Source: a virus. Taken from it: a stretch of 47,801 nucleotides of DNA. The stretch lies in IMG/VR virus record IMGVR_UViG_3300027985_000083, positions 1 through 47,801 of that record; one strand, written 5' to 3'. Shown here piece by piece: positions 1,036 to 36,782 of the stretch. The first letter of the stretch is position 1, and each line of letters starts with the position of its first letter. Below the pieces are notes generated by a model. That model worked only from the letters and a program-made list of their open reading frames with translations. It was not told where the DNA came from and ran no database searches. A program made the translations under genes and the position numbers.

Positions 1036-2878
1036 TTAGTAGTTAGAGGCAGAGGTGATGAGAACACCGAGGGTGTCTACACGCTGCGGACCCATGCCCC
1101 AACGGCAACGAGTTACAAACTCATCACGGGCACGGTCTTTATTTCTTTCCATTCGTATATAATATACGTCAGACTATAGCTTCCTCCGCAGAGGTTTTCT
1201 CACTTAGTCGTTGCAGTCTCTGTAATGAAATGCTAGAAGTTGTTCAATCTTCCATTTCTTGAAGCGCGAATGCTTATGAACTTTTGGTAAGAAGTGCAGG
1301 GCTCTACTTCTGTTCATCTTACCCATAGTGATTTGCCACACCATTGTGTTTTCTTTTCTACACTCGTAGATGGCACCACCAAATGCTTTTTGCAGGAGTT
1401 CTATACCTACCACATCGCCATGATGGGCTTTAACTTGCACAAGCACAGTGCCAGACTTAGGAAGTTGGTACGAGCCGTCACCGTCTAGGTACCCGGCTAC
1501 CCAAGCCCAAGTTGGGTGGTTCTTGTGCTTTATAGGGCCTGTGTGCAATCTGCTTTCTGTACTGTACTCTTTAATTACAGATATAGTGCCGTCATCAACT
1601 GCGGCACCTTTAAAAGAGCAGTATAGCTTGTATAGCCTACCCCAGTGAGCACCTTTTATAACCATGTGCTTTGTTACGTGTGGCAGGAACAGGTTCAAGT
1701 CCTTTCTTGACTGCACACGAAACACATATGCGTCTTGGTGATTTTTATTTTCGTAGGTTTTTATATCACAAGAGCCAAAAAACTTTGTTAAGCTTTGCAG
1801 GTAACCATTTCTGTCGTAACCCACTGCCGCGCTAATCTCAAGCAGTAATGCTACGTACTGGCTACCGTACCTATTCTTAACAATCTTTATACTCAAACTG
1901 CCGTCGGCATCCAACAAACCAGCCAAGTATTTCCATTCGCTTTCATTCAACATTTCACTTACCCCACACTATGCGGATGTATCAGATTACTTCGTGTTAG
2001 GCTGCCAGCGGCAGGTCTTCCACGTTGTTCAGAGAAAAACGGGCAAAAGCTTTACCCTCAACCTTCGGCATACGACGCCATGCAGCCATAATGGGCTTAG
2101 TGTTGTCGTCCAGCACACACATGAAGATGTTAGCTACACCACCAGTTACGGAAGTGGTGCCATCAGAGAAGGTGCCAGTGGGCAGGCGGTTGGAGGTGAT
2201 GATGTCCCAACCAAAGAGCTGCATCACGAAGCGCTGACCACGGGCCATACCTTCCTTCAAAATCATCTCACCAAACGGAGAGACGTCGTGAGTGATGGTT
2301 ACGAGACCGTTCAGGGTTGCTTCTACAACAGGGTCACAGATGAACACACGACCGGAGTCAGGTACGTTGGCCTTATCAAACGCCAGACGCATTGCAATCA
2401 GATGCTTCAGAGCAAAGACGTTGTTAGTCTCGGCAGAAGCAATGCGGTGTGCGAAGCCGTTAATGGTGTTCGGGTTGGCGTTAGTTTGAGCGGCGTTGCA
2501 CACGCTCAGGAAGCGAGACTCGAAGGTCTCTTGCAGGGCACGGGTAGACTCCACGGAGCGTGCAGACATGAGCTGCTCAATCTGAGACCCGTCTTCACGC
2601 AGGTCGTCGGTTACGTACCAGGCATCACCTACATAGTTGGTAATCTGGAGGCTAACTTCACCCGACTCAATCGGGTTGTACACCAGAGGGGTGTCTTCGG
2701 CAGCTTCCTGAATAGTTACAGAGCCGACAGTTTTAATGTGGAGGGTGGTGCCACTACCAAAGTCAGAGACGTTGCGGTAGAAGGTTTGTGGCAGGAGACC
2801 GTCGTGCAGGTTGTTCAGAATGAACGAGCTGTACTGCTCCGCTTCAATAAACGCTTGGCTATTGCTTGTTACTTGCAT
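1036..2878 (-). CDS. Major capsid protein, split by a group I intron (exon 1: 2878-2054; exon 2: 1149-1036)
   Basis: Exon 1 encodes 275 residues (MQVTSNSQAF to RRMPKVEG) after a GAGG ribosome binding site. Exon 2 encodes 37 residues (ERNKDRARDE to ITSASNY). Joined in frame they give a 312-aa protein of normal capsid size for podoviruses. Without splicing, exon 1 would read into the intron and stop 19 residues later (after LPLAA), losing the C-terminal strand that begins RDEFVTRCRWGMG. Position after the scaffold gene and before a small head gene supports the assignment. The fold (HK97 type) is inferred from family knowledge. Splice sites are predicted from intron pairings and not measured. 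Confidence 0.85.
1150..2053 (-). ncRNA. Group I self-splicing intron within the capsid gene
   Basis: The 904-nt insertion has the marks of a group I ribozyme. P1 pairs the exon end GGGU with GCCC (U-G wobble at the splice site). P10 pairs the second-exon start GAAAG with CUUUU just before that GCCC. A CTGCC-GCT-GGCAG hairpin fits P2. An R-like element CTGCAACGACTAAG supplies the P7 strand GACTA (1209-1205), pairing with TAGTC (1176-1172) in an S-like element AAGCTATAGTC. P8 is CCTC-TGCG-GAGG (1194-1183) and P9 is CGTATA-TTA-TATACG (1168-1154). The intron ends in the expected G at 1150. P3 to P6 are less clear by eye. Confidence 0.88.
1204..1953 (-). CDS. LAGLIDADG homing endonuclease encoded in the capsid intron
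   Basis: This 249-aa protein has two LAGLIDADG motifs, LAGLLDADGS near residues 10-19 and VAGYLDGDGS near residue 152. It is therefore a two-motif monomer of typical length; the acidic residue of each motif should bind the catalytic metal. Such enzymes cut intronless alleles and drive intron spread. Its last codons (TGC AAC GAC TAA) lie inside the R/P7 element of the ribozyme, so protein end and RNA core share bases. GGGGT upstream of the ATG is a modest ribosome binding site. LAGLIDADG enzymes are uncommon in phage introns, where GIY-YIG and HNH types dominate. Confidence 0.93.
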   Translation of the reverse strand: MLNESEWKYLAGLLDADGSLSIKIVKNRYGSQYVALLLEISAAVGYDRNGYLQSLTKFFGSCDIKTYENKNHQDAYVFRVQSRKDLNLFLPHVTKHMVIKGAHWGRLYKLYCSFKGAAVDDGTISVIKEYSTESRLHTGPIKHKNHPTWAWVAGYLDGDGSYQLPKSGTVLVQVKAHHGDVVGIELLQKAFGGAIYECRKENTMVWQITMGKMNRSRALHFLPKVHKHSRFKKWKIEQLLAFHYRDCND

Positions 2879-3772: not shown

Positions 3773-4033
3773 TTAATCTTTTTTACTGGCGTCTTCTAGC
3801 AAGCTCTTTACTTCTTCCAGCGCACGCTGGTATCCTGTGGCGTCTGCTTGCTTTAACGCCCAATTAGGGGAGTCGTAAGACTCAGAACTACGTGACGCCC
3901 TAACAGAACTGTTTATCTTGGCGTCCAGCATTTCTGCCAGACGCTCCCTAACCATCTTAGACGCCAAGAAGTTTGAGCGTAGCTCCTTCTTAATGCTGGC
4001 GTCCTTAATTCCGCTTAACCAAGATGTCTTCAC
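3773..4033 (-). CDS. Small head-associated protein between portal and scaffold
   Basis: Encodes 86 aa from a GTG start that overlaps the portal stop (GTGA), with AGGACATCACTTC as ribosome binding region. It is mostly helical and charged with no cysteine, and ends in a Lys/Glu-rich helix (LEEVKSLLEDASKKD). I do not recognise a family. Position between portal and scaffold, and translational coupling to portal, suggest a head assembly or minor virion role. Confidence 0.65.
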   Translation of the reverse strand: MKTSWLSGIKDASIKKELRSNFLASKMVRERLAEMLDAKINSSVRASRSSESYDSPNWALKQADATGYQRALEEVKSLLEDASKKD

Positions 4034-5787
4034 GAAGTGATGTCCTGTGGAACAGCAGCTTCCATTTGCAAGTCTTCTTGTGCTTGATTAACCAAGCGTT
4101 GAGTTTCTTGCTGTTCAAAGATAGCCGCATTAGGTTTAAACAGATTGTAACGCTCAAGACCAAGGACATCCTCAAGAAGCTTAGTGAGTTGAATCCCTGA
4201 CAGATGTGGTGCAACCACTTGAGCCATTGGACCATTCAACATCATGCTGAGGTTCTGCACAAGCTGTGCTTGAGAGGCGTAGTGTCTTGCTCCAACTGGT
4301 CTAATTTTACCAGACCCTGTAATATCGTCCTTGGTTACGCTCAGGAACGATTGTACAGCCAAGTCATCGTCTAGTACTCGGACGACATCAAACGTCTCCA
4401 TGTTGCGTCTGGCGCTCTCTAGCATGGCGTTTAGAATTGGTTCCAGCAGTTCAATCTCGAAGCTGGTAATTTTCTCTTGGAAAATACGGCCAGCAGCATT
4501 CTGCAATGACTGCACTTCAAATGCCGTTTTCTCACCTGCTGTACGAATACCCATGGCTTCACGAGGTGCTCCGGAGTACAGCTCCATCTTTTCCTCTAAT
4601 GTGTGGATTTCGTTAGATGCAGCGATGATGCCGTTAAGGTTCTTGCCAAGCTCAGAGACGTTTCCATTCTCGTCGGTGTGAATCTCGGCACCAGGGCCCC
4701 ATACAAACTCCTCAACCTCCCCAGTAATTACAAGCGGGGGGTGTACACACAGGTCCATGGCGTCTGCCTTGAGGTTTTCGAGGTGGTCAATTCGGTATTG
4801 CATACCTACTAGGTTGTCCAGAGGCCCCATTGCCCACAAGTTGTCAGGGCGCATACGCCACCCTACATGACACACTGGAGCCTTGCCAAAGTATGATTTG
4901 ATTGGTTTTTCACGTACAACATGACACCGGTCGAACACAGTGATTACTACGTTAGACTTTAGCTCACCAGTTTCTGTGCTGTGGTAGTCCCCATAGAACT
5001 CCAAGATTTCAACATAGTCGGATTGGTAGTATTCGTAGAGGTTGCCAAATCCGTCCACAGAATAGCCCTCAGCCTTGTCGAAGTCTTCTATGCTATAACC
5101 CCCCAGCACCTTCCTCATAGTTGCTCTACGGGCCGCATAGGAGGCATAGAAGGCATTCTCAGGCCACTCCTCTGCCATCTTCTGGATTTCACCAACAGTT
5201 TTGATGCTACGGACGATTTTAAACGACTCATCGAAGGTTGCAGCAGTCGGATCGAACACAATATCAAGCGGGGAGATACGGAATACTCGTGGGCCAATAA
5301 ACCCAGCGATGCGCTGGCCAGTGGTTGGGTCTTCACGATACTGAGCAGAGAAGTCAACAGTGGCAAAGGCATTGCCGTAGTCAATGTAGTCAAGCAACAG
5401 CTTGGACATTTCAGTGCGGAAATGGCCCTCTCGTGTCTTGTTCTTCATATAGGCTTCAATGGCGCGAGTTTTCTTCTTTGTGCCATCATCCTTAGAATAC
5501 GCCTCCCAACGTAGCCAGTCGTCGTTAGGGAATAGCGCAGACAGGTAGTTAGAGTGGAGGTTGTCCCGAATCTGACAGAGCTTAGGTAGCGTTGTAGAGT
5601 TCTTCCACGGAAGGGTTTGGTTTGCTGTGGTTGTGGTGTCCGTAGCAAATACGTAGTTACGAAGCTCTTTCCACTCCTCAATCTTTTCTCGTCGCTGATT
5701 GTTGAAGGCAGTCCAAAGATTGGACACCCACGCCGCAGCATCGTCTTGCTTGAGCCATTTATTTAGCTCAGCCACTTTTGTGCTCAT
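4030..5787 (-). CDS. Portal (head-tail connector) protein
   Basis: The 585-aa protein has the length and character of T7-type portal proteins. It has a charged helical start, a region rich in Trp and Tyr near residues 75-130 (YLSALFPNDDWLRWEAYSK), a helical stem region and a long C-terminal helix with Gln-rich end. Portals form the dodecameric ring through which DNA is packaged. AGAGGATAAGT precedes the ATG. It lies 2 nt after terminase large subunit, the canonical order. Confidence 0.88.
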   Translation of the reverse strand: MSTKVAELNKWLKQDDAAAWVSNLWTAFNNQRREKIEEWKELRNYVFATDTTTTANQTLPWKNSTTLPKLCQIRDNLHSNYLSALFPNDDWLRWEAYSKDDGTKKKTRAIEAYMKNKTREGHFRTEMSKLLLDYIDYGNAFATVDFSAQYREDPTTGQRIAGFIGPRVFRISPLDIVFDPTAATFDESFKIVRSIKTVGEIQKMAEEWPENAFYASYAARRATMRKVLGGYSIEDFDKAEGYSVDGFGNLYEYYQSDYVEILEFYGDYHSTETGELKSNVVITVFDRCHVVREKPIKSYFGKAPVCHVGWRMRPDNLWAMGPLDNLVGMQYRIDHLENLKADAMDLCVHPPLVITGEVEEFVWGPGAEIHTDENGNVSELGKNLNGIIAASNEIHTLEEKMELYSGAPREAMGIRTAGEKTAFEVQSLQNAAGRIFQEKITSFEIELLEPILNAMLESARRNMETFDVVRVLDDDLAVQSFLSVTKDDITGSGKIRPVGARHYASQAQLVQNLSMMLNGPMAQVVAPHLSGIQLTKLLEDVLGLERYNLFKPNAAIFEQQETQRLVNQAQEDLQMEAAVPQDITS

Positions 5788-5789
5788 AC

Positions 5790-7373
5790 TTATCCTCTAA
5801 ATGAGATACCGCCGAAGCGTTTATTTGTGTTCAATGTTTGGATTCCGAACACGTCCTTGCTGGTTCGTGTTTGTTTAGGCTTTATGGAGATGGCTATAGC
5901 CGATGCTAGGGCATCCTTAAGGTCATCGTGTGGTGGCCTAGCCAAGACCAACTCCTCTTCAAGCACGGGTGTGTAGCCGCCCTTAAAATGCCATACAGCT
6001 TGGTTATCATAACGATGTTCGAGGGTAGCAGCAATACGCTCTTCCTTGCTACCCTCTGAGCGACTGGGGCGATATTCCTCAACAGACAACTTCATCCCCT
6101 CTTTACGGATGTAGTCTTTGATGTCGTTTACGATGATTTGCTGTGCCACAGTAACTTCTGCACGGAGCTTTTTAAACTCCCACTTAGAATGCAGTGCAGC
6201 AATATGCTTGAAGTAGTCTAAGATTTTATCAGTTTTGAAACGGTCTATATCAAGTATATAAACACTACCTTCACAATCAACCCCAATAACCACAATAGCA
6301 GTATAGTCGGCAGCCTTCGAGAGCGAGAATGCAAAGTCGATTGAGGCATAGACATTTAACCGCCTATCTTTAAAGAACCAATCTCCACCAGCCTGCTTCA
6401 CAAATCTCTGGTCATAGTATTGGAACTTATCACGACTGATGCGTTCAGAGCCGGGGTCGTTCGGGTTGTTGTAGTATTGGGCGTAATACTGTGTTGTATC
6501 CTCATACTCGCCACGAATGCCAGCAAGGATGTTTAGGTTAAATCCAAACATCTTGCCATCTGGCCTTGCCTCTCGTGGCCACAGGAATCTCCCATCCTCT
6601 TCTACGACATGCTCTTTGATGTCCCACAAAGGACGCTCACCAGTGATTTCACCAGTCTCCTCATCATACAATGTGGCTTTCTGATTTTTCCAAGTGTAGT
6701 AAATATCTGCTGGATGGTAACGTGTACCACAAGCTTTTGTAAAACCGCCTGCATTACGAATGGAAGTCATTTGCGACATGGCAGCAGTGACACGCTTACG
6801 ACCATCCTCTGTGTACGCGTTATCTGGTACAACAACGTCATCTGCTACAATTACATCAGCGTGCCATCCTGTGGTGTTGGTTGTAAGGCCAGCAGTTGCT
6901 ACAGTCCAGTCACGAACGCCCTCAGATTTGCGTTTAGGGTGGTCTACAGCTATTTTAGACACAGCCCATTTCTCACGCTTTCCTTCCTCTGGGTTAATCA
7001 TGTCAGGGAAGTACCTAGCGTAGATTCGCGAAGTGAGTATATTCTTGATGTCGTAGAGCTGCTTCTCAGCCAATTCAGCAGTGGCGGATATATACAGAAT
7101 TGTGGTCTCTGGGTGTTTTGTAACCCACCACGCACACCACACAGCAATCAGATGACTCTTCATGTGCGCCCGTGGCAACAACAGCAATTGGTTCTGGTCG
7201 TTGTTGCTCTGCAACCACTTACACACCTCCTTATGGATTTCCCCGTAGACACGCTGTGGGTTAATCAGCCGGGCAAAGGTAAACAAATCGTCCATCGCCG
7301 CCTGACGAACATCCTTGGCCTGCTGTGGCATGTCTTCTATTTTCTTTATCGCGGCTGTTAACCAGTCAGACAT
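5790..7373 (-). CDS. Terminase large subunit
   Basis: This 527-aa protein is the packaging motor. The ATPase half has a variant Walker A (LLLPRAHMKSHL, near residues 61-72) and a Walker B VIVADDVV near residue 175. The nuclease half has acidic motifs IDFAFS (near residue 345) and HDDLKDAL near residue 490, which are metal ligands in this family. The ATG overlaps the stop of the small subunit (TAATG), so the two are coupled. Length and motif spacing fit podovirus terminases. Confidence 0.93.
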   Translation of the reverse strand: MSDWLTAAIKKIEDMPQQAKDVRQAAMDDLFTFARLINPQRVYGEIHKEVCKWLQSNNDQNQLLLLPRAHMKSHLIAVWCAWWVTKHPETTILYISATAELAEKQLYDIKNILTSRIYARYFPDMINPEEGKREKWAVSKIAVDHPKRKSEGVRDWTVATAGLTTNTTGWHADVIVADDVVVPDNAYTEDGRKRVTAAMSQMTSIRNAGGFTKACGTRYHPADIYYTWKNQKATLYDEETGEITGERPLWDIKEHVVEEDGRFLWPREARPDGKMFGFNLNILAGIRGEYEDTTQYYAQYYNNPNDPGSERISRDKFQYYDQRFVKQAGGDWFFKDRRLNVYASIDFAFSLSKAADYTAIVVIGVDCEGSVYILDIDRFKTDKILDYFKHIAALHSKWEFKKLRAEVTVAQQIIVNDIKDYIRKEGMKLSVEEYRPSRSEGSKEERIAATLEHRYDNQAVWHFKGGYTPVLEEELVLARPPHDDLKDALASAIAISIKPKQTRTSKDVFGIQTLNTNKRFGGISFRG

Positions 7374-17482: not shown

Positions 17483-17675
17483 AGTTGGGGATATGGTGAG
17501 AAAGCAAGATGGGGATGACCACCCTTACTTGCTGCCAGATGTGGTGTACAAAATAGCCAAAATAGACTATTTTGTCGGAGAGTATTTTGTACAGCTAGAG
17601 GGCTTTCATAGCACTGCTTTCTCCGAGAGTAGGTTTTTACCCAACAAGCCAAATTTCAAAGGAAACATCAAATGA
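17469..17675 (+). CDS. SH3/KOW-like mini-protein with FKGNIK tail (68 aa)
   Basis: ATG 17469 overlaps the end of the 16250 gene, with GGAG upstream. The start MSTFKVGDMVRKQDG is typical of small SH3-like barrels (VGDxV turn). The last residues FKGNIK are encoded by TTCAAAGGAAACATCAAATGA, which is also the ribosome binding site and start of the next gene (ATGA overlap). It is one of about eleven such ORFs in this block. Function unknown; it may be a structural fold or mainly a translation-coupling leader. Confidence 0.7.
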   Translation: MSTFKVGDMVRKQDGDDHPYLLPDVVYKIAKIDYFVGEYFVQLEGFHSTAFSESRFLPNKPNFKGNIK

Positions 17676-26791: not shown

Positions 26792-26945
26792 GAATGGGTA
26801 CCCCGATAGGGTTTACCACCTGACTTCTGGTGGCAAGGTTTTTGTAAAGATAAATGATTTACAATGGAAGGTTAGCTGCTGGTCTTACGACCCTGTCTTC
26901 CACGATGTAATGATGAAAATTAATACATTCAAAGGAAATAAATGA
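26769..26945 (+). CDS. Mini-protein with FKGNK tail (58 aa)
   Basis: I choose ATG 26769 (AGAGG 8 nt upstream); 26763 is an alternative two codons earlier. MKATHRHRNGYPDRVYHL matches the start of the 24255 copy and the end INTFKGNK matches INTLKGNK. The two are therefore the clearest paralogue pair. Its tail AAAGGAAATAAATGA starts the polymerase exonuclease gene. Confidence 0.65.
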   Translation: MKATHRHRNGYPDRVYHLTSGGKVFVKINDLQWKVSCWSYDPVFHDVMMKINTFKGNK

Positions 26946-27331
26946 AAAAGGTGGTTGTCTTTGATGTGGAGGCGGATGGGCTGAAAGCCACAAAGCTTCA
27001 TTGCCTTTCCGCAAACATGGACGACAAGATGCACTCCACAACAAGCTATGAAAGAGTGGCCAAGCTGATGTCAAGGGAAGATGTTATTCTTGTTGGCCAT
27101 AATATTATTAGGTATGATATACCCACACTTGAACGGCTCCTAGGTATTGAGGTTAAGTGTGAACTTGTAGACTCATTGGCTATTTCTTGGTATCTCGAAC
27201 CAGAACGTAAGCTGCACGGTCTTGAAGCATGGGGTGAAGAGCTTGGTGTGCCAAAGCCAATCATTACAGATTGGGAAGGTATAACAGAAGAAGAGGCAAC
27301 TATATTGGAGTACTATGAAGGTAGGAGATAG
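26942..27331 (+). CDS. DNA polymerase, 3'-5' exonuclease part (split gene, N-terminal piece)
   Basis: These 129 aa hold exonuclease motif I (VVFDVEADGL, Asp and Glu metal ligands) and motif II (VGHNIIRYDIP). They also hold the conserved GLEAWGEELGVPKPIITDWEG stretch of family A phage polymerases. It stops after ILEYYEGRR. Exonuclease motif III (HRCEEDVKIN) is encoded on the downstream ORF, beyond an HNH gene, in another frame. The piece alone lacks a metal ligand, so activity should need association with the 27874 product. Confidence 0.88.
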   Translation: MKKVVVFDVEADGLKATKLHCLSANMDDKMHSTTSYERVAKLMSREDVILVGHNIIRYDIPTLERLLGIEVKCELVDSLAISWYLEPERKLHGLEAWGEELGVPKPIITDWEGITEEEATILEYYEGRR

Positions 27332-27893
27332 GATTTCAAACTATATAATTCTTGCCACTGCAAATCCGAGAGGCAAGAACAGATATTTTACTTGCAGATG
27401 CGTTAACTGTGGCCACACCAAAGAGGTGGCAATGTCAAACTTGAGGACAAAAGGCAGTACAAGGGGTACTTGCAACCTATGCAACACAGACTCGCACCCA
27501 ATGTATGGCACCTGGAAGAGTATGATGACCAGGTGCTACAATGCAAATTGCAGGACTTACAAATACTACGGTGGCAGAGGTGTCTATGTTTGCGAGAGGT
27601 GGGTTGAGTCTTTCTGGAACTTCTATGAAGACATGGGGGACAGGCCAGAGCACTGCACTCTTGACAGGAAAGACAACAACGGGCCATACTCTGCGGAGAA
27701 CTGCCGCTGGGCTACTGCTGTAGAGCAACAATCCAACACAAGCAGGAATATCTTAATAAAGTACGACGGTGGTCTTGTGACCGAGGCTGAGTTATCGAGG
27801 CTAACTGGCGTCCCTAGGACTACTATCCAGTGTAGGAGAAAGAGGGGCCTTAGTAGTGCTGAGGAGCTGTTAAGTGGACCTAGAAACATTTAA
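27315..27893 (+). CDS. HNH homing endonuclease inserted in the DNA polymerase gene
   Basis: This 192-aa protein has an N-terminal zinc ribbon (CRCVNCG near residue 29, CNLC near 57). The HNH domain follows (MYGTWKSMMTRCYN; YYGGRGVYVCERW; LDRKDNNGPYSAENCRWA). The C-terminal part is helix-turn-helix-like (TEAELSRLTGVPRTTIQCRR). It starts inside the exonuclease ORF (TTGGAG site) and ends inside the polymerase ORF, and its 3' end supplies GAGGAG as ribosome binding site for the polymerase piece. No group I intron core is seen around it, so it looks like a free-standing homing gene that has split its host gene. Confidence 0.92.
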   Translation: MKVGDRISNYIILATANPRGKNRYFTCRCVNCGHTKEVAMSNLRTKGSTRGTCNLCNTDSHPMYGTWKSMMTRCYNANCRTYKYYGGRGVYVCERWVESFWNFYEDMGDRPEHCTLDRKDNNGPYSAENCRWATAVEQQSNTSRNILIKYDGGLVTEAELSRLTGVPRTTIQCRRKRGLSSAEELLSGPRNI

Positions 27894-29478
27894 GACATTA
27901 TCGCCAGATGACATGGAGGCAGAATATCGGAGGATACTGTTAAAGAAGGACGAGCACTCAAAGTTAATGGTGCATCGTTGTGAGGAAGACGTCAAGATTA
28001 ATACCTTGCTGTGGAAGCGTCAGTGGAAGCAGTTGGTCAAGCTGTACGAAGGTGAAGAACAGGCGTGGGAGTTTATACGCTACCTAACCTTCAAGATGAA
28101 ATGCGCAGCAGACCAAGAGAAGTTTGGATGGAAGCTTGATGTTGAACGTTGCACAGAAGCTCTTGAGAGGCTCTCTAAGCTAAAGGAGGAGAAGGTTGTA
28201 GAGCTGGCACAGGTCATGCCTAAAGTGCCTGTAATCAAGAAGAAGACACGCCCTGCTAAGCCATTTAAGATGGATGGCAGTAAGAGCGCAACAGGCGTTG
28301 CTTGGTTTAAGTTACTGGAGGAGAAGGGACTACCTGAAGACTATGACGGTGTTGTAGAATATGTTGATGGTTACAAAGAACCTAACCCAGGGAGTCATGA
28401 CCAGATTAAAGATTGGTTGTACGGACTTGGGTGGGTGCCTAGTGAGTTTAAATACCAGCGCAACAAAGAAACAGGAGACATAAAGAAGATACCACAGGTT
28501 AGCTTGGACTCTAAACATCCAGACTATCCAAGTGTATGTCCATGTGTTCAACGCCTATTCGAGAAGGAGCCAAAGCTAGAAGTACTGAATGGCCTATCAG
28601 TCTTGTCACATCGCATTTCGATTCTTAAAGGCTTCTTAGCCAACGTTGACGAGCACGGCTATGTACAGGCTAAAGTGCAGGGGCTAACTAATACGTTACG
28701 CTTCAAGCACGCTGTAGTGGTTAACCTGCCTGGAGTTGATAAGCCCTATGGCGAAGATATACGTGGTTGTCTTATAGCGCCAGATGGCTTCGAGCTATGT
28801 GGTTCTGACTGCGCCTCTCTTGAGGACAGAACTAAGCAACATTACATGTGGCCACATGATCCAGAATATGTTAAGGAGATGACAACACCAGACTTCGATC
28901 CACATCTTGACTTGGCTGTGTTTGCTAAAGCACTAACAAGCGAGCAGGCACAAGCCCATAAAGACGGCACACAGAAGTTTGGCCCTATCCGTAAGATATA
29001 TAAGGCTGTCAACTATGCCTGTGTCTACGGAGCAGGCGGACCCCGTGTAGCCATAACAGCAGGTGTAACAGAGGCCGAGGGTGGCAGGCTTGTAGAGGCG
29101 TATTGGCGTCGTAACTGGGCCGTGAAGGCCATAGCAGAGGAGCAGAAAGTAAAGCAATGCAATGGTCGTAAGTGGTTGTTCAATCCAGTGAGTAAGTTTT
29201 GGTACTCGCTGAGGCATGACAAAGACAGGTTCTCGACGCTCAACCAAGGCACTGGCGTATTCTGTTTTGATACGTGGGTTAAGTATGTTAAGGCAGGCAA
29301 AGTACCTATCATTGGACAGATGCACGACGAGATAATCTGTCTTGTACGTAAAGGCAAGAGAGATAAACTAACTAAGTTCTTACATGAATGTATGGACAAG
29401 ACTAACAAAGAATTGAAGCTCAACAGGGAGTTAGATTGCTCTGTTGACTTCGGGGCATCATACGCCCAAATCCATTGA
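27874..29478 (+). CDS. DNA polymerase family A, polymerase part (split gene, C-terminal piece)
   Basis: GTG start after GAGGAGCTGTTAA. The 534 aa begin with the missing exonuclease motif III (HRCEEDVKIN, near residue 35) and continue through the polymerase palm. Motif A is SDCASLEDR (near residue 311), motif B KIYKAVNYACVYGAG (near 373) and motif C MHDEI (near 482). Together with the 129-aa piece the total (663) is close to T7 DNA polymerase (704). The thioredoxin-binding loop cannot be judged. The two pieces probably assemble into one replicase. Confidence 0.92.
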   Translation: MDLETFKTLSPDDMEAEYRRILLKKDEHSKLMVHRCEEDVKINTLLWKRQWKQLVKLYEGEEQAWEFIRYLTFKMKCAADQEKFGWKLDVERCTEALERLSKLKEEKVVELAQVMPKVPVIKKKTRPAKPFKMDGSKSATGVAWFKLLEEKGLPEDYDGVVEYVDGYKEPNPGSHDQIKDWLYGLGWVPSEFKYQRNKETGDIKKIPQVSLDSKHPDYPSVCPCVQRLFEKEPKLEVLNGLSVLSHRISILKGFLANVDEHGYVQAKVQGLTNTLRFKHAVVVNLPGVDKPYGEDIRGCLIAPDGFELCGSDCASLEDRTKQHYMWPHDPEYVKEMTTPDFDPHLDLAVFAKALTSEQAQAHKDGTQKFGPIRKIYKAVNYACVYGAGGPRVAITAGVTEAEGGRLVEAYWRRNWAVKAIAEEQKVKQCNGRKWLFNPVSKFWYSLRHDKDRFSTLNQGTGVFCFDTWVKYVKAGKVPIIGQMHDEIICLVRKGKRDKLTKFLHECMDKTNKELKLNRELDCSVDFGASYAQIH

Positions 29479-29492
29479 TAAGAGGAAAGTAA

Positions 29493-30206
29493 ATGGCAGG
29501 TTTGAACGCAGGTAAAGTTAAGCAAGCTGGCGGTAATGGTAAGAAGTTTGCTCCGCAAGATGAGATTGAAGTGGGTAACTACCCGTCACGTCTTGCACAA
29601 ATCATCGACCTTGGTCGCCACTACCGTGACAAATGGGTTGATGGACAGGGTTATGTAGCAGACACCGACCGCCCTCCGGTTGGCTACATCATGCTGACAT
29701 ATGAACTCTGCACTGAGTTTATGAAAGACGAGCAAGGCAACGATATTGAGGATAAGCCTCGTTGGCTTAGTGAGTCAATTCCCCTGTTGCCTTTGGACAG
29801 TGAATTGGCCACCTCCACTAAACGCTATCTGGCCTTTGACCGACCTAAGAAATATGGTGGAGACTGGACAGGGCTGCTTGGTCATCCGTGTACACTTACT
29901 GTTGCACACACCAAGAAGGGGCGTGCTAAGGTGGGCAGTGTAACGCCGCCGATGAAAGGGTTGCAAGTACCCGAACCTAAGAATGTCCCTAAGTTCTTCG
30001 ACACCACAGCGCCTGATGTAGAAATCTTCAGCAGCTTGCCTCAGTGGATTCAAGACAAGATTAAGTCTAACTTGGATTATGAAGGCAGTGAGCTACAAGC
30101 TGTGCTTGAAGGAAAGCCGAAGGCTGTTGCACCTGTCAAGGAGACAGCTAAGAAACCTGTTGAGCCTGAAGTTGTTGAGCAAGAAGAGGACGATGAGCCG
30201 TGGTAA
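29493..30206 (+). CDS. Single-stranded DNA-binding protein
   Basis: This 237-aa protein follows the polymerase gene. The N-terminal part is beta-rich and basic, consistent with an OB fold. A Lys/Pro/Val-rich linker leads to an acidic tail with a terminal aromatic residue (VEQEEDDEPW), the hallmark by which T7 gp2.5 and bacterial SSB contact replisome partners. AGAGGAAAGTAA precedes the ATG. The family assignment rests on this tail, size and position. Confidence 0.78.
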   Translation: MAGLNAGKVKQAGGNGKKFAPQDEIEVGNYPSRLAQIIDLGRHYRDKWVDGQGYVADTDRPPVGYIMLTYELCTEFMKDEQGNDIEDKPRWLSESIPLLPLDSELATSTKRYLAFDRPKKYGGDWTGLLGHPCTLTVAHTKKGRAKVGSVTPPMKGLQVPEPKNVPKFFDTTAPDVEIFSSLPQWIQDKIKSNLDYEGSELQAVLEGKPKAVAPVKETAKKPVEPEVVEQEEDDEPW

Positions 30207-30519: not shown

Positions 30520-30741
30520 TTGCACGACATTGAAATGTGCTGTGGCACAACTTGCAACAAAGTAGCCAATCTAGACTACGTTAAGCGTCTAGAGCTAGCT
30601 GTTGATAAGCTGACAACAGAGCGTAATGACTTGCGTGTTGAGGCTCAGTTTTATAAAGACCTGTACTACGAGGCTATTGGAGACATCCAGAAGCATTACA
30701 TCAACCTAGGAAAGGAGAAGAAAAATAAAACCACTAATTGA
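30520..30741 (+). CDS. Small Cys-containing helical protein (73 aa)
   Basis: I start at TTG 30520 because CGGAGG lies 7 nt upstream and the ORF then follows the previous stop by one base; ATGs at 30475-30481 would overlap the prior gene. It begins (Met)HDIEMCCGTTCNKVANL, a Cys-rich start followed by a charged coiled coil. Its 3' end overlaps the exonuclease start. Function unknown. Confidence 0.55.
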   Translation: MHDIEMCCGTTCNKVANLDYVKRLELAVDKLTTERNDLRVEAQFYKDLYYEAIGDIQKHYINLGKEKKNKTTN

Positions 30742-31516
30742 CGGAGACCTAGTAGCGTATGAACTAGCCTTTGGCTGTCAACGCTTTGAAGACGACCAGC
30801 TTGTCCTTGTGCCTGTTGAAGAAGTCAATCAACGTGTGACAAATAAGATCGAGGAAATCTGTGCAGAGGTGTATGCAACAGAGCCACCAACAATCTTCTT
30901 CACTGGCAAGACTAACTTCCGCAATGATGTGGCCAAGAGCAAGCCTTACAAGGGAAATCGTAAAGGGGATAAGCCACACTACCTGAAATACATACGCTCA
31001 TATCTCATGGCTAATTATGACAGTGAGCTTGTCGAAGGGCTTGAGGCTGATGATTTGATGGCAATGCGACAAACAGAACGCCTCAAGTTTAAGGACACAA
31101 TCATCTGCACACGAGACAAAGACTTACGTCAAGTACCTGGGATGCACTACGGATGGGAGTGTGGCAAGCAACCTAGCTTTGGGCCTAAGTGTGTGGACAA
31201 GCACGGTACACTAGAGCTTAAGGGTGGTAAGAAGCTCAAGGGCACTGGGGACATGTTGTTGTACGCTCAGATGCTTATCGGAGACAGCGTTGACAACATC
31301 GGAGGGGCAAGAGGTTGGTCTGATATTAAAACATACAACCTGCTCAAAGACTGCCAAGATGAGCTGTCGCTCTACAAGGCTGTTGAGAGCGTCTATAACG
31401 AATTGTATGGTGATCAGGCTATGGAGCTACTAACTGAGACAGCAAACCTCGTATGTATGATTAGGGAGGCCCCTGAAGGCATTCCTGTTATGTGGAGGGC
31501 ACCTATTGCTACGTAA
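30725..31516 (+). CDS. 5'-3' exonuclease (FEN/T7 gp6-like), apparent AUA start
   Basis: The essential N-terminal metal motif (KPLIDGDLVAYE) is read only if translation starts at ATA 30725, which follows AAAGGAGAAGAAA. In this frame a TAG lies at 30707-30709 and no ATG, GTG or TTG occurs between it and the motif. Starting at GTG 30809 would delete the motif. With the ATA start the protein has 263 aa. It shows further nuclease acidic clusters (GLEADDLMA; CTRDKDLRQVPG; LIGDSVDNIGG), the last being the helix-hairpin-helix metal site. It should remove RNA primers and degrade host DNA. Confidence 0.82.
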   Translation: MKPLIDGDLVAYELAFGCQRFEDDQLVLVPVEEVNQRVTNKIEEICAEVYATEPPTIFFTGKTNFRNDVAKSKPYKGNRKGDKPHYLKYIRSYLMANYDSELVEGLEADDLMAMRQTERLKFKDTIICTRDKDLRQVPGMHYGWECGKQPSFGPKCVDKHGTLELKGGKKLKGTGDMLLYAQMLIGDSVDNIGGARGWSDIKTYNLLKDCQDELSLYKAVESVYNELYGDQAMELLTETANLVCMIREAPEGIPVMWRAPIAT

Positions 31517-31880
31517 CTCTGGAAAATGGACACAGGCCCGCTTCAATTCATTCATCAAGAGTGGCCTTAGGGCAATGTCAAGACGTTGGCCACCTAAGTT
31601 TGAATGTCTTGCAGACGCTTGTGTTGGTACAAAGACAAACAAAGCAACAGGACGTATGGCAAAGCATTATGAATGTGCGGAGTGTCATAATCAGTTCCCA
31701 GCTAAAGAGGTGGCCGTCGATCATATAGAACCTGTCGTACCTGTCAGTGGATTCACTACATGGGATGAAGTAATTGAGCGCATGTTTGTAGAGAAAGAAG
31801 GTCTACAGGTGCTGTGTAAGGAGTGCCATCGGGTTAAGTGCCAAGAAGAAAAACAACAACGCAAACAAGCAAAAGGATAA
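31506..31880 (+). CDS. HNH endonuclease (free-standing)
   Basis: TTG start 31506 with GGAGG 7 nt upstream, overlapping the exonuclease end by 11 nt. The 124 aa show FNSFIKSGLRAMSRRWPPKF, then zinc Cys pairs (CAECHNQFP; CKECHRVKC) around the HNH core VDHIEPVVP and LQVLCKECHR. Similar genes sit next to the exonuclease in other T7-like phages. It could be a homing nuclease or a packaging or host DNA nuclease. Confidence 0.85.
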   Translation: MLRNSGKWTQARFNSFIKSGLRAMSRRWPPKFECLADACVGTKTNKATGRMAKHYECAECHNQFPAKEVAVDHIEPVVPVSGFTTWDEVIERMFVEKEGLQVLCKECHRVKCQEEKQQRKQAKG

Positions 31881-35937: not shown

Positions 35938-36257
35938 CAGCTTAAAGTGATTGCAGTAATCACCCCTCCAGCTACAGTGAATGTTACCTTACTTACGTAA
36001 GTACCAGTAGGTGTAACGCCAGACAACTGCTGCCCGGATGTCACAACAGTTTTGGTGCCCCCTGGGGTTACTGGCGCTTGTACAACGCCACGATTCACTG
36101 CGTCATAATACCCAGCCTCAGCCTCTGTAAAATTAGATTTAGACAGGCCGGTGAGTGAGTTGTAATATGCTGTAGCTGCATCAGGCATAGTAGTGATGCT
36201 CTTGCCAGTACGTGCATTATAAAATCTAATTGCTGCATCTTTAACGTTAACTGTCAT
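35937..36257 (-). CDS. Small structural-type protein (106 aa)
   Basis: ATG overlaps the stop of the upstream gene (ATGA). The first half is helical (VKDAAIRFYNARTGKS; AATAYYNSLTGL) and the second half is Thr/Val/Gly-rich and beta-like (VTPTGTYVSKVTFTVAGG). This split is common in minor virion or fibre-associated proteins. No specific family recognised. Confidence 0.6.
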   Translation of the reverse strand: MTVNVKDAAIRFYNARTGKSITTMPDAATAYYNSLTGLSKSNFTEAEAGYYDAVNRGVVQAPVTPGGTKTVVTSGQQLSGVTPTGTYVSKVTFTVAGGVITAITLS

Positions 36258-36550
36258 TTACTTTTGCTTCCTTTAGGACGTCCACCAGTACCAAGATTCT
36301 TGGCACGATTTTTACTCTTATCCATAACGCGCAAGTTGCTCTTGCTGTTATCTAGTTTACCACGGGCCTTGTGCTTCTTATGATCGACATCCTTGCCATC
36401 CCCCTTCCTCACCTTACCCGCCCTCTCCATCTCCCGTCTGGCTGCATTACGCTGCGCCCTACGAGCCTTCTGCTCTGGTTGCTGATTGTACTTACGTTTA
36501 GCAACAGAGGCAGGCTTGGCGTTCTTCTTGTATTCGCCACGCTTTGCCAT
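36254..36550 (-). CDS. Very basic protein with HNH-like core (98 aa)
   Basis: ATG 36550 follows GGGGAGTTGAT; an extension to 36571 lacks a binding site. Nearly 40 percent of residues are Lys or Arg. The middle GDGKDVDHKKHKARGKLDNS followed by SNLRVMDKSKNRAKN recalls a compact HNH-type layout (DH...N) known in small phage proteins annotated as HNH endonucleases. Activity is uncertain. Confidence 0.65.
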   Translation of the reverse strand: MAKRGEYKKNAKPASVAKRKYNQQPEQKARRAQRNAARREMERAGKVRKGDGKDVDHKKHKARGKLDNSKSNLRVMDKSKNRAKNLGTGGRPKGSKSK

Positions 36551-36551
36551 A

Positions 36552-36782
36552 TCAACTCCCCTTCTTAACACTAAGTTTCTCGTCTATAACACCAAGCCTA
36601 ATTGTGTTCTCCACAACCTGACGCTTCAAGTCATCAATCTCACTGTCGTGCTTGTTAATCACTTTAATCAAGCTGTCAATGCGCTCTACCAACACAGCAG
36701 TTTGTTGAGAGGTGGAATACACTACACCACCTACAGCAAGTATAGTTGGGAGGAGCAACTCAAACAATCTTTGCATCGTCAT
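36552..36782 (-). CDS. Membrane-anchored coiled-coil protein (76 aa)
   Basis: Residues 5-24 (RLFELLLPTILAVGGVVYST) are a membrane segment. The rest is a heptad helix (VERIDSLIKVINKHDSEIDD and onward). Such anchors with coiled coils occur in accessory lysis proteins and in virion-associated membrane proteins. It is far from the main lysis cassette, so either role is open. It could start at ATG 36776 instead, two codons later. Confidence 0.65.
   Translation of the reverse strand: MTMQRLFELLLPTILAVGGVVYSTSQQTAVLVERIDSLIKVINKHDSEIDDLKRQVVENTIRLGVIDEKLSVKKGS

Follow-up and report, generated by a model that had tools for sequence, protein, structure and literature searches.

A family A DNA polymerase gene split in two by an HNH endonuclease gene in a 47.8-kb virus record

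Permanent splits have been reported for some T4-like genes, as the preliminary description of the DNA treated here had noted. Precedents include Aeromonas phage Aeh1, in which nrdA is split by mobE and the split enzyme is functional, T4 gene 60/mobA, where a topoisomerase subunit is made in two pieces beside a homing endonuclease gene, and Aeromonas phage 25 gene 43/seg43, a family B polymerase whose two pieces, 43A and 43B, co-purify and are active (PMC2988022). Family A polymerases divided over two ORFs, with a small ORF in the middle, have been described in the Zobellviridae-related OM43 phages MEP401 and MEP402 (PMC10580990). The locus compared with these systems below lies in a 47.8-kb virus record from IMG/VR, which was analyzed over its whole length of 47,801 nt (the window).

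Layout of the divided gene and its restart signal

The feature consists of three overlapping ORFs in three different frames, an N-terminal polymerase part (Pol-N), an HNH gene and a C-terminal polymerase part (Pol-C; Table 1). The endonuclease gene lies exactly between the polymerase parts and overlaps each of them (17 nt for Pol-N/HNH and 20 nt for HNH/Pol-C). Exonuclease motifs I (DVEADGL) and II (HNIIRYDIP) are carried by Pol-N, and motif III (HRCEED), in which R35 and D39 are invariant in homologues, by Pol-C, whose polymerase domain is matched by Pfam DNA_pol_A (E = 7.5e-13) and by a PDB sequence profile. These two matches, together with the fold of an uninterrupted relative (L227, see below), identify the protein as a family A (T7-like) DNA polymerase. 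Adjoining parts of a single profile, phrog_17, are matched by the two fragments (669-809 by Pol-N and 797-1232 by Pol-C). The HNH protein matches the profiles of PHROG 3377/374 (E = 1.4e-46 and 7.6e-46) and retains the invariant columns of its family alignment. The split of the polymerase gene in two by an HNH gene is confirmed at the sequence level, and the ORFs and profiles bear out both the division of the exonuclease motifs, with I and II in one frame and III in another together with the polymerase domain, and the doubly overlapping HNH gene between the two parts, as first described.

Table 1. Coordinates of the polymerase-HNH locus in the window
Feature	Position	Strand	Basis
Pol-N, 129 aa, N-terminal polymerase part (family A) with motifs I and II of the 3'-5' exonuclease	26942..27331	+	
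Pol-N C-terminal tail ATILEYYEGRR, without counterpart in short-loop homologues; first hairpin arm by comparison with L227	27296..27328	+	
GGAG, Shine-Dalgarno of HNH gene, within Pol-N	27307..27310	+	sequence, anti-SD energy
HNH endonuclease gene, 192 aa, PHROG 3377/374	27315..27893	+	
GAGGAG, Shine-Dalgarno of Pol-C, within HNH 3' end, codes Glu-Glu	27861..27866	+	sequence, anti-SD energy
Pol-C, 534 aa, GTG start; carries the leader, motif III of the exonuclease and the complete polymerase domain	27874..29478	+	
Pol-C leader, 32 codons (VDLETFKTLSPDDMEAEYRRILLKKDEHSKLM), missing from short-loop homologues	27874..27969	+	

The GAGGAG ends 7 nt upstream of the GTG of Pol-C, with an anti-SD duplex energy of -8.4 kcal/mol that is matched by just 2.5% of the 3002 start-like triplets in the window. 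An in-frame TAA abuts this GTG on its 5' side, so that it is the first possible Pol-C start, and since the GAGGAG encodes Glu-Glu near the HNH C-terminus, the endonuclease gene supplies the Pol-C binding site. Positions and Shine-Dalgarno energy thus agree with the earlier proposal that the HNH 3' end bears the GAGGAG and the GTG that restart the polymerase. The junctions held no hairpin, unusual RNA structure, terminator or convincing promoter beyond what shuffled sequence gave. Ribosomes finishing Pol-N would start the HNH gene 17 nt back, and those nearing its end would start Pol-C at the GTG via GAGGAG; translation of both pieces, and its coupling, are predicted from these signals.

Several further observations concern gene starts and endonuclease-like genes elsewhere in the window. 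A C-terminal FKGN (e.g. NKFKGNK) is shared by ten ORFs, most of them short (at 17655, 18532, 19859, 20849, 21919, 22889, 23843, 26287, 26928 and 34228), and at eight of these ten places the DNA reads TTCAAAGG(A/G/T)AA just upstream of the start of the next gene. Because this common DNA precedes the next start, repeated use of one ribosome binding site is the probable source of the shared C-terminal peptide. The frame of a 5'-3' exonuclease (30725-31516) extends with conserved-looking sequence (KIKPLIDGDLVAYELAFG) upstream of its first ATG, GTG or TTG, and the sole start-like codon behind a strong AGGAAAGGAG is an ATA at 30725. By eye, a LAGLIDADG-like ORF adjoins the capsid gene (1204-1953, minus strand) and two further ORFs are HNH-like (31506-31880, plus strand, and 36254-36571, minus strand); the genome may be rich in homing-endonuclease-like genes.

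Place of the split in the protein and condition of the fragments

The window polymerase is closest to those of Paundecimvirus (Zobellviridae) phages, e.g. PA11/TC6 (about 65% identical). Comparison with uninterrupted homologues, which the preliminary description had proposed, yielded relatives with a single ORF: Pseudomonas phage TC6 (65% identical) reads '..WENLAVEEYIHRCEEDVKIN..', and in TC6, vB_PaeM_Ty, PP21 and others WENLAVEE-YIHRCEEDVKIN spans the site. Of 183 homologous polymerase loci surveyed in phages and viral contigs, 176 were in a single frame; the remaining entries are the window, the LUZ24 control and further genes that are split or frameshifted, one contig being entered twice. 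The split is therefore not a matter of chance. A split at the exonuclease site was seen in this analysis in the window only. Alignment with short-loop homologues is lost after EEE (27295) and resumes at VHRCEED (27970); the intervening stretch of the window consists of a tail of 11 residues, the HNH gene and a leader of 32 codons. An empty site at the exact place was not found in any close relative (phages, viral contigs or genome contigs), and for that reason the insertion borders are fixed only to about 30 codons.

At the split site the uninterrupted relative L227 has a long loop (EEEWLGLSKGELDRIDYLKSNSPDSEELSILEKKKKDHLSLMIHRCSED), to whose two halves the window tail and leader align weakly (p ~0.02 each). 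The AlphaFold model of L227 (pLDDT 94.1), with T7 DNA polymerase as its best structural match, folds this loop into two helices (120-132 and 137-178) joined by a short turn, the second helix continuing into motif III, and in the model of Pol-C the leader is part of the motif III helix from residue 11 onward. Given the modeled L227 loop and leader helices, the endonuclease gene appears to occupy the tip of a helical hairpin located between motifs II and III, one arm being carried by each chain, and the two arms may pair between the chains.

Conservation was assessed at positions at least 95% conserved among 46 uninterrupted polymerases. Of these, Pol-N retains 20 of 22, one of the two exceptions falling at the junction, and 109 of 112 are retained in Pol-C. 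The exonuclease-to-polymerase divergence ratio is 1.10 in the window and 1.04 +/- 0.19 in uninterrupted genes. By these sequence measures, both fragments are still under constraint, with no relaxation.

The reading that we prefer, with a probability of roughly 80%, is an HNH insertion that yielded three cistrons and two polymerase chains that assemble, share the arms of the hairpin and complete the exonuclease site in trans. In a Zobellviridae-like podophage, a free-standing HNH homing endonuclease gene would have inserted at the point in the DNA polymerase gene that corresponds to the hairpin tip between exonuclease motifs II and III, and the polymerase gene would now be read as three overlapping cistrons (Pol-N, HNH and Pol-C). 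Chains of 129 and 534 aa would assemble with one hairpin arm from each, and the exonuclease active site would be completed with motifs I and II from one chain and motif III from the other. Assembly, exonuclease activity and mobility of the HNH gene are in this scheme predictions from sequence.

Alternatively, Pol-C could work alone as an exonuclease-deficient polymerase, with Pol-N a relic, as the whole polymerase domain is on Pol-C and proofreading can be dispensable for polymerization in family A enzymes. We regard this as unlikely, because Pol-N retains its start, its Shine-Dalgarno sequence and its catalytic residues besides the conserved positions counted above, and diverges no faster than the corresponding part of intact genes, although a very recent insertion would still be compatible with that rate.

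A second split site and the origin of the leader

Beyond the window, eleven contigs, about nine of them distinct, carry a polymerase split between motifs A and B (L018, L129, L198, L199, L234, L235, L243, L245, L250, L252 and L259), found via loci with gaps, close relatives and a scan for the leader motif. At this site the N-terminal ORF ends in [IL]TxxExxF[YF]xW[YF]..stop, an endonuclease follows, and the polymerase restarts after it with [MV]-[TN]-L-[DE]-E-M-K-x-L-P (in L252 a few codons earlier). The endonuclease is either an HNH protein of PHROG 99 (L018, L129 and L250; L199 by similarity to L129) or endonuclease VII-like, of PHROG 2914/2633 (L234, L245 and L259; L252 by sequence similarity). 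The cistron layout is the same as in the window, with overlaps of 11-41 nt at the upstream junction and 1-86 nt at the downstream one; the HNH-type loci have a strong restart Shine-Dalgarno sequence (-8.6 to -12 kcal/mol). L018 was searched for an intron and none was found. In L243 only about 96 nt of the endonuclease gene are left (ARGLLCHNCNRGLGLFQD...); this remnant contains the restart, and the polymerase continues to be encoded by two ORFs. This contig is the best evidence in these sequences, and suggests that such splits can be permanent without splicing, the 3' end of the endonuclease gene being retained as a start signal.

The same contig bears on the possibility that the insert is a self-splicing intron whose homing endonuclease is the HNH protein and whose core has diverged beyond recognition. 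Group I introns with HNH genes are common in phage polymerase genes (PMC10580990 and references therein), and a two-sided break with an endonuclease between looks alike at first sight. A search against Rfam, however, gave no match up to E = 10 within 26900-29500, whereas the polymerase group I intron of LUZ24 was detected in a stretch of equal size searched in the same way (E = 2.4e-8); the search was run in E-value mode, as the LUZ24 intron scores 40.8 bits, below the gathering threshold of 50. Almost all of the insert is HNH coding sequence, which leaves less than 100 nt for a core, its folding is ordinary (z -0.6), and the restart Shine-Dalgarno sequence and GTG would serve no need in a spliced gene. 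L243, albeit at another site, stays split with its short remnant. A group I intron was accordingly rejected, its catalytic core being undetectable while the control intron was found, and we hold even a highly divergent one to be very improbable. The statement in the preliminary description that no intron core is visible thus stands, and its view of the gene as permanently split gains support from the persistence of the split in a member of the same polymerase family that has lost most of its endonuclease. An intein was also rejected, Pol-N, HNH and Pol-C being in three frames and the insert in frame with neither host part. An assembly chimera or sequencing artefact deserves hardly any credence, for although the locus comes from a single metagenomic IMG/VR record that has no second, identical copy, each of the three ORFs is clean, with orderly overlaps and good ribosome binding sites, and the same cistron layout is repeated in independent contigs.

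Under the preferred insertion, the origin of the Pol-C leader can be read in two ways. Its first 21 residues resemble the leaders at the motif A-B (palm) site in Smith-Waterman shuffle tests (p = 1e-4 for L018 and <5e-5 for L250; 0.01 and 0.10 for two others), it takes the top rank among the 2705 start-anchored peptides of its genome in comparison with these leaders, and its DNA (-30 to +66) ranks first of 5662 start triplets, all of these tests having been chosen only after the resemblance had been noticed. In polymerases the leader motif occurs only behind an endonuclease or an endonuclease remnant, and polymerases 95% identical to the second half of L129 lack its 24-residue leader. A database search with the window leader returned nothing useful. 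We tentatively raise, as a somewhat doubtful idea, that the endonuclease 3' end is a transferable restart module, present at two polymerase sites and with three endonuclease types, which would comprise a ribosome binding site, a start codon and a leader of about 20 codons (x-L-[DE]-[ET]-[MF]-K-x-L-[PS]..) and might perhaps act as an assembly tag. The likeness could instead stem from convergence of charged helices, or the leader could be a native long loop as in L227. The indications conflict, since the leader is like the palm-site leaders (p <= 1e-4 for two of four) and also, more weakly, like the L227 loop (p = 0.02).

Other contigs gave the following observations. An HNH/endonuclease VII-like ORF interrupts the polymerase of L173 just after NYA (motif B; 5560-6420), and that of L146 has a simple frameshift around 5655 with no insert, through sequencing error or decay. 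The DNA polymerase ORF of Caulobacter phage RW (L004, 1999-4881) looks intein-containing, and in another frame inside it (4001-4552) there is a match to a relative of the window's HNH protein. ORF50 of PQ867842.1 (L111, 559-1479), annotated 'DNA polymerase I', looks like a 5'-3' exonuclease, and the adjacent HNH ORF48 joins a domain like the HNH-like ORF at 31506-31880 of the window to one like the polymerase HNH. T5S1-k141_444551 was rejected as a split polymerase, since its 'DNA polymerase I' ORF50 resembles a 5'-3' exonuclease and its real polymerase runs across the record ends.

Comparison with known split enzymes

With the locus described here, a family A replicative polymerase joins the few phage enzymes that are known to be fragmented by homing endonucleases, and such fragmentation is seen to recur within one polymerase family, at two or more sites and with several endonuclease types. 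The eroded gene of L243 suggests a route from a selfish insertion to a fixed two-subunit enzyme. Both halves in the window are small and easily expressed, and assembly and proofreading in trans are therefore directly testable.

As in Aeh1 nrdA/mobE, the gene of an essential enzyme is interrupted by an HNH endonuclease gene, which leaves two ORFs for different parts of the active enzyme (PMC2988022). The Aeh1 enzyme is a ribonucleotide reductase of a myovirus and its endonuclease is unrelated to the HNH protein of the window, where, in contrast to Aeh1, the polymerase restart is located inside the endonuclease gene. Later work reportedly found that protein segments derived from the mobile element help the two Aeh1 pieces to assemble. 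In phage 25 the polymerase is of family B, the endonuclease is of the GIY-YIG type and its role as the cause of the split is uncertain, whereas the window polymerase is of family A and is cut through the exonuclease active site. The polymerases of MEP401 and MEP402 are cut within the polymerase domain, with a middle ORF reported to be without known homologues (PMC10580990); judged by their description, they may belong to the motif A-B site class.

Phages of the LUZ24/PaP3/tf type have a separate 'DNA polymerase exonuclease subunit' and resemble the window in encoding exonuclease and polymerase on different ORFs. There, however, the two parts lie several genes apart, and gp25 of LUZ24 also carries the motif III region (EYCLQD), whereas in the window the active site itself is divided. 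LUZ24 has in addition a true group I intron further downstream. What is new here is that the divided gene encodes a family A polymerase whose exonuclease active site is cut through, and that the polymerase restart is contained in the endonuclease gene.
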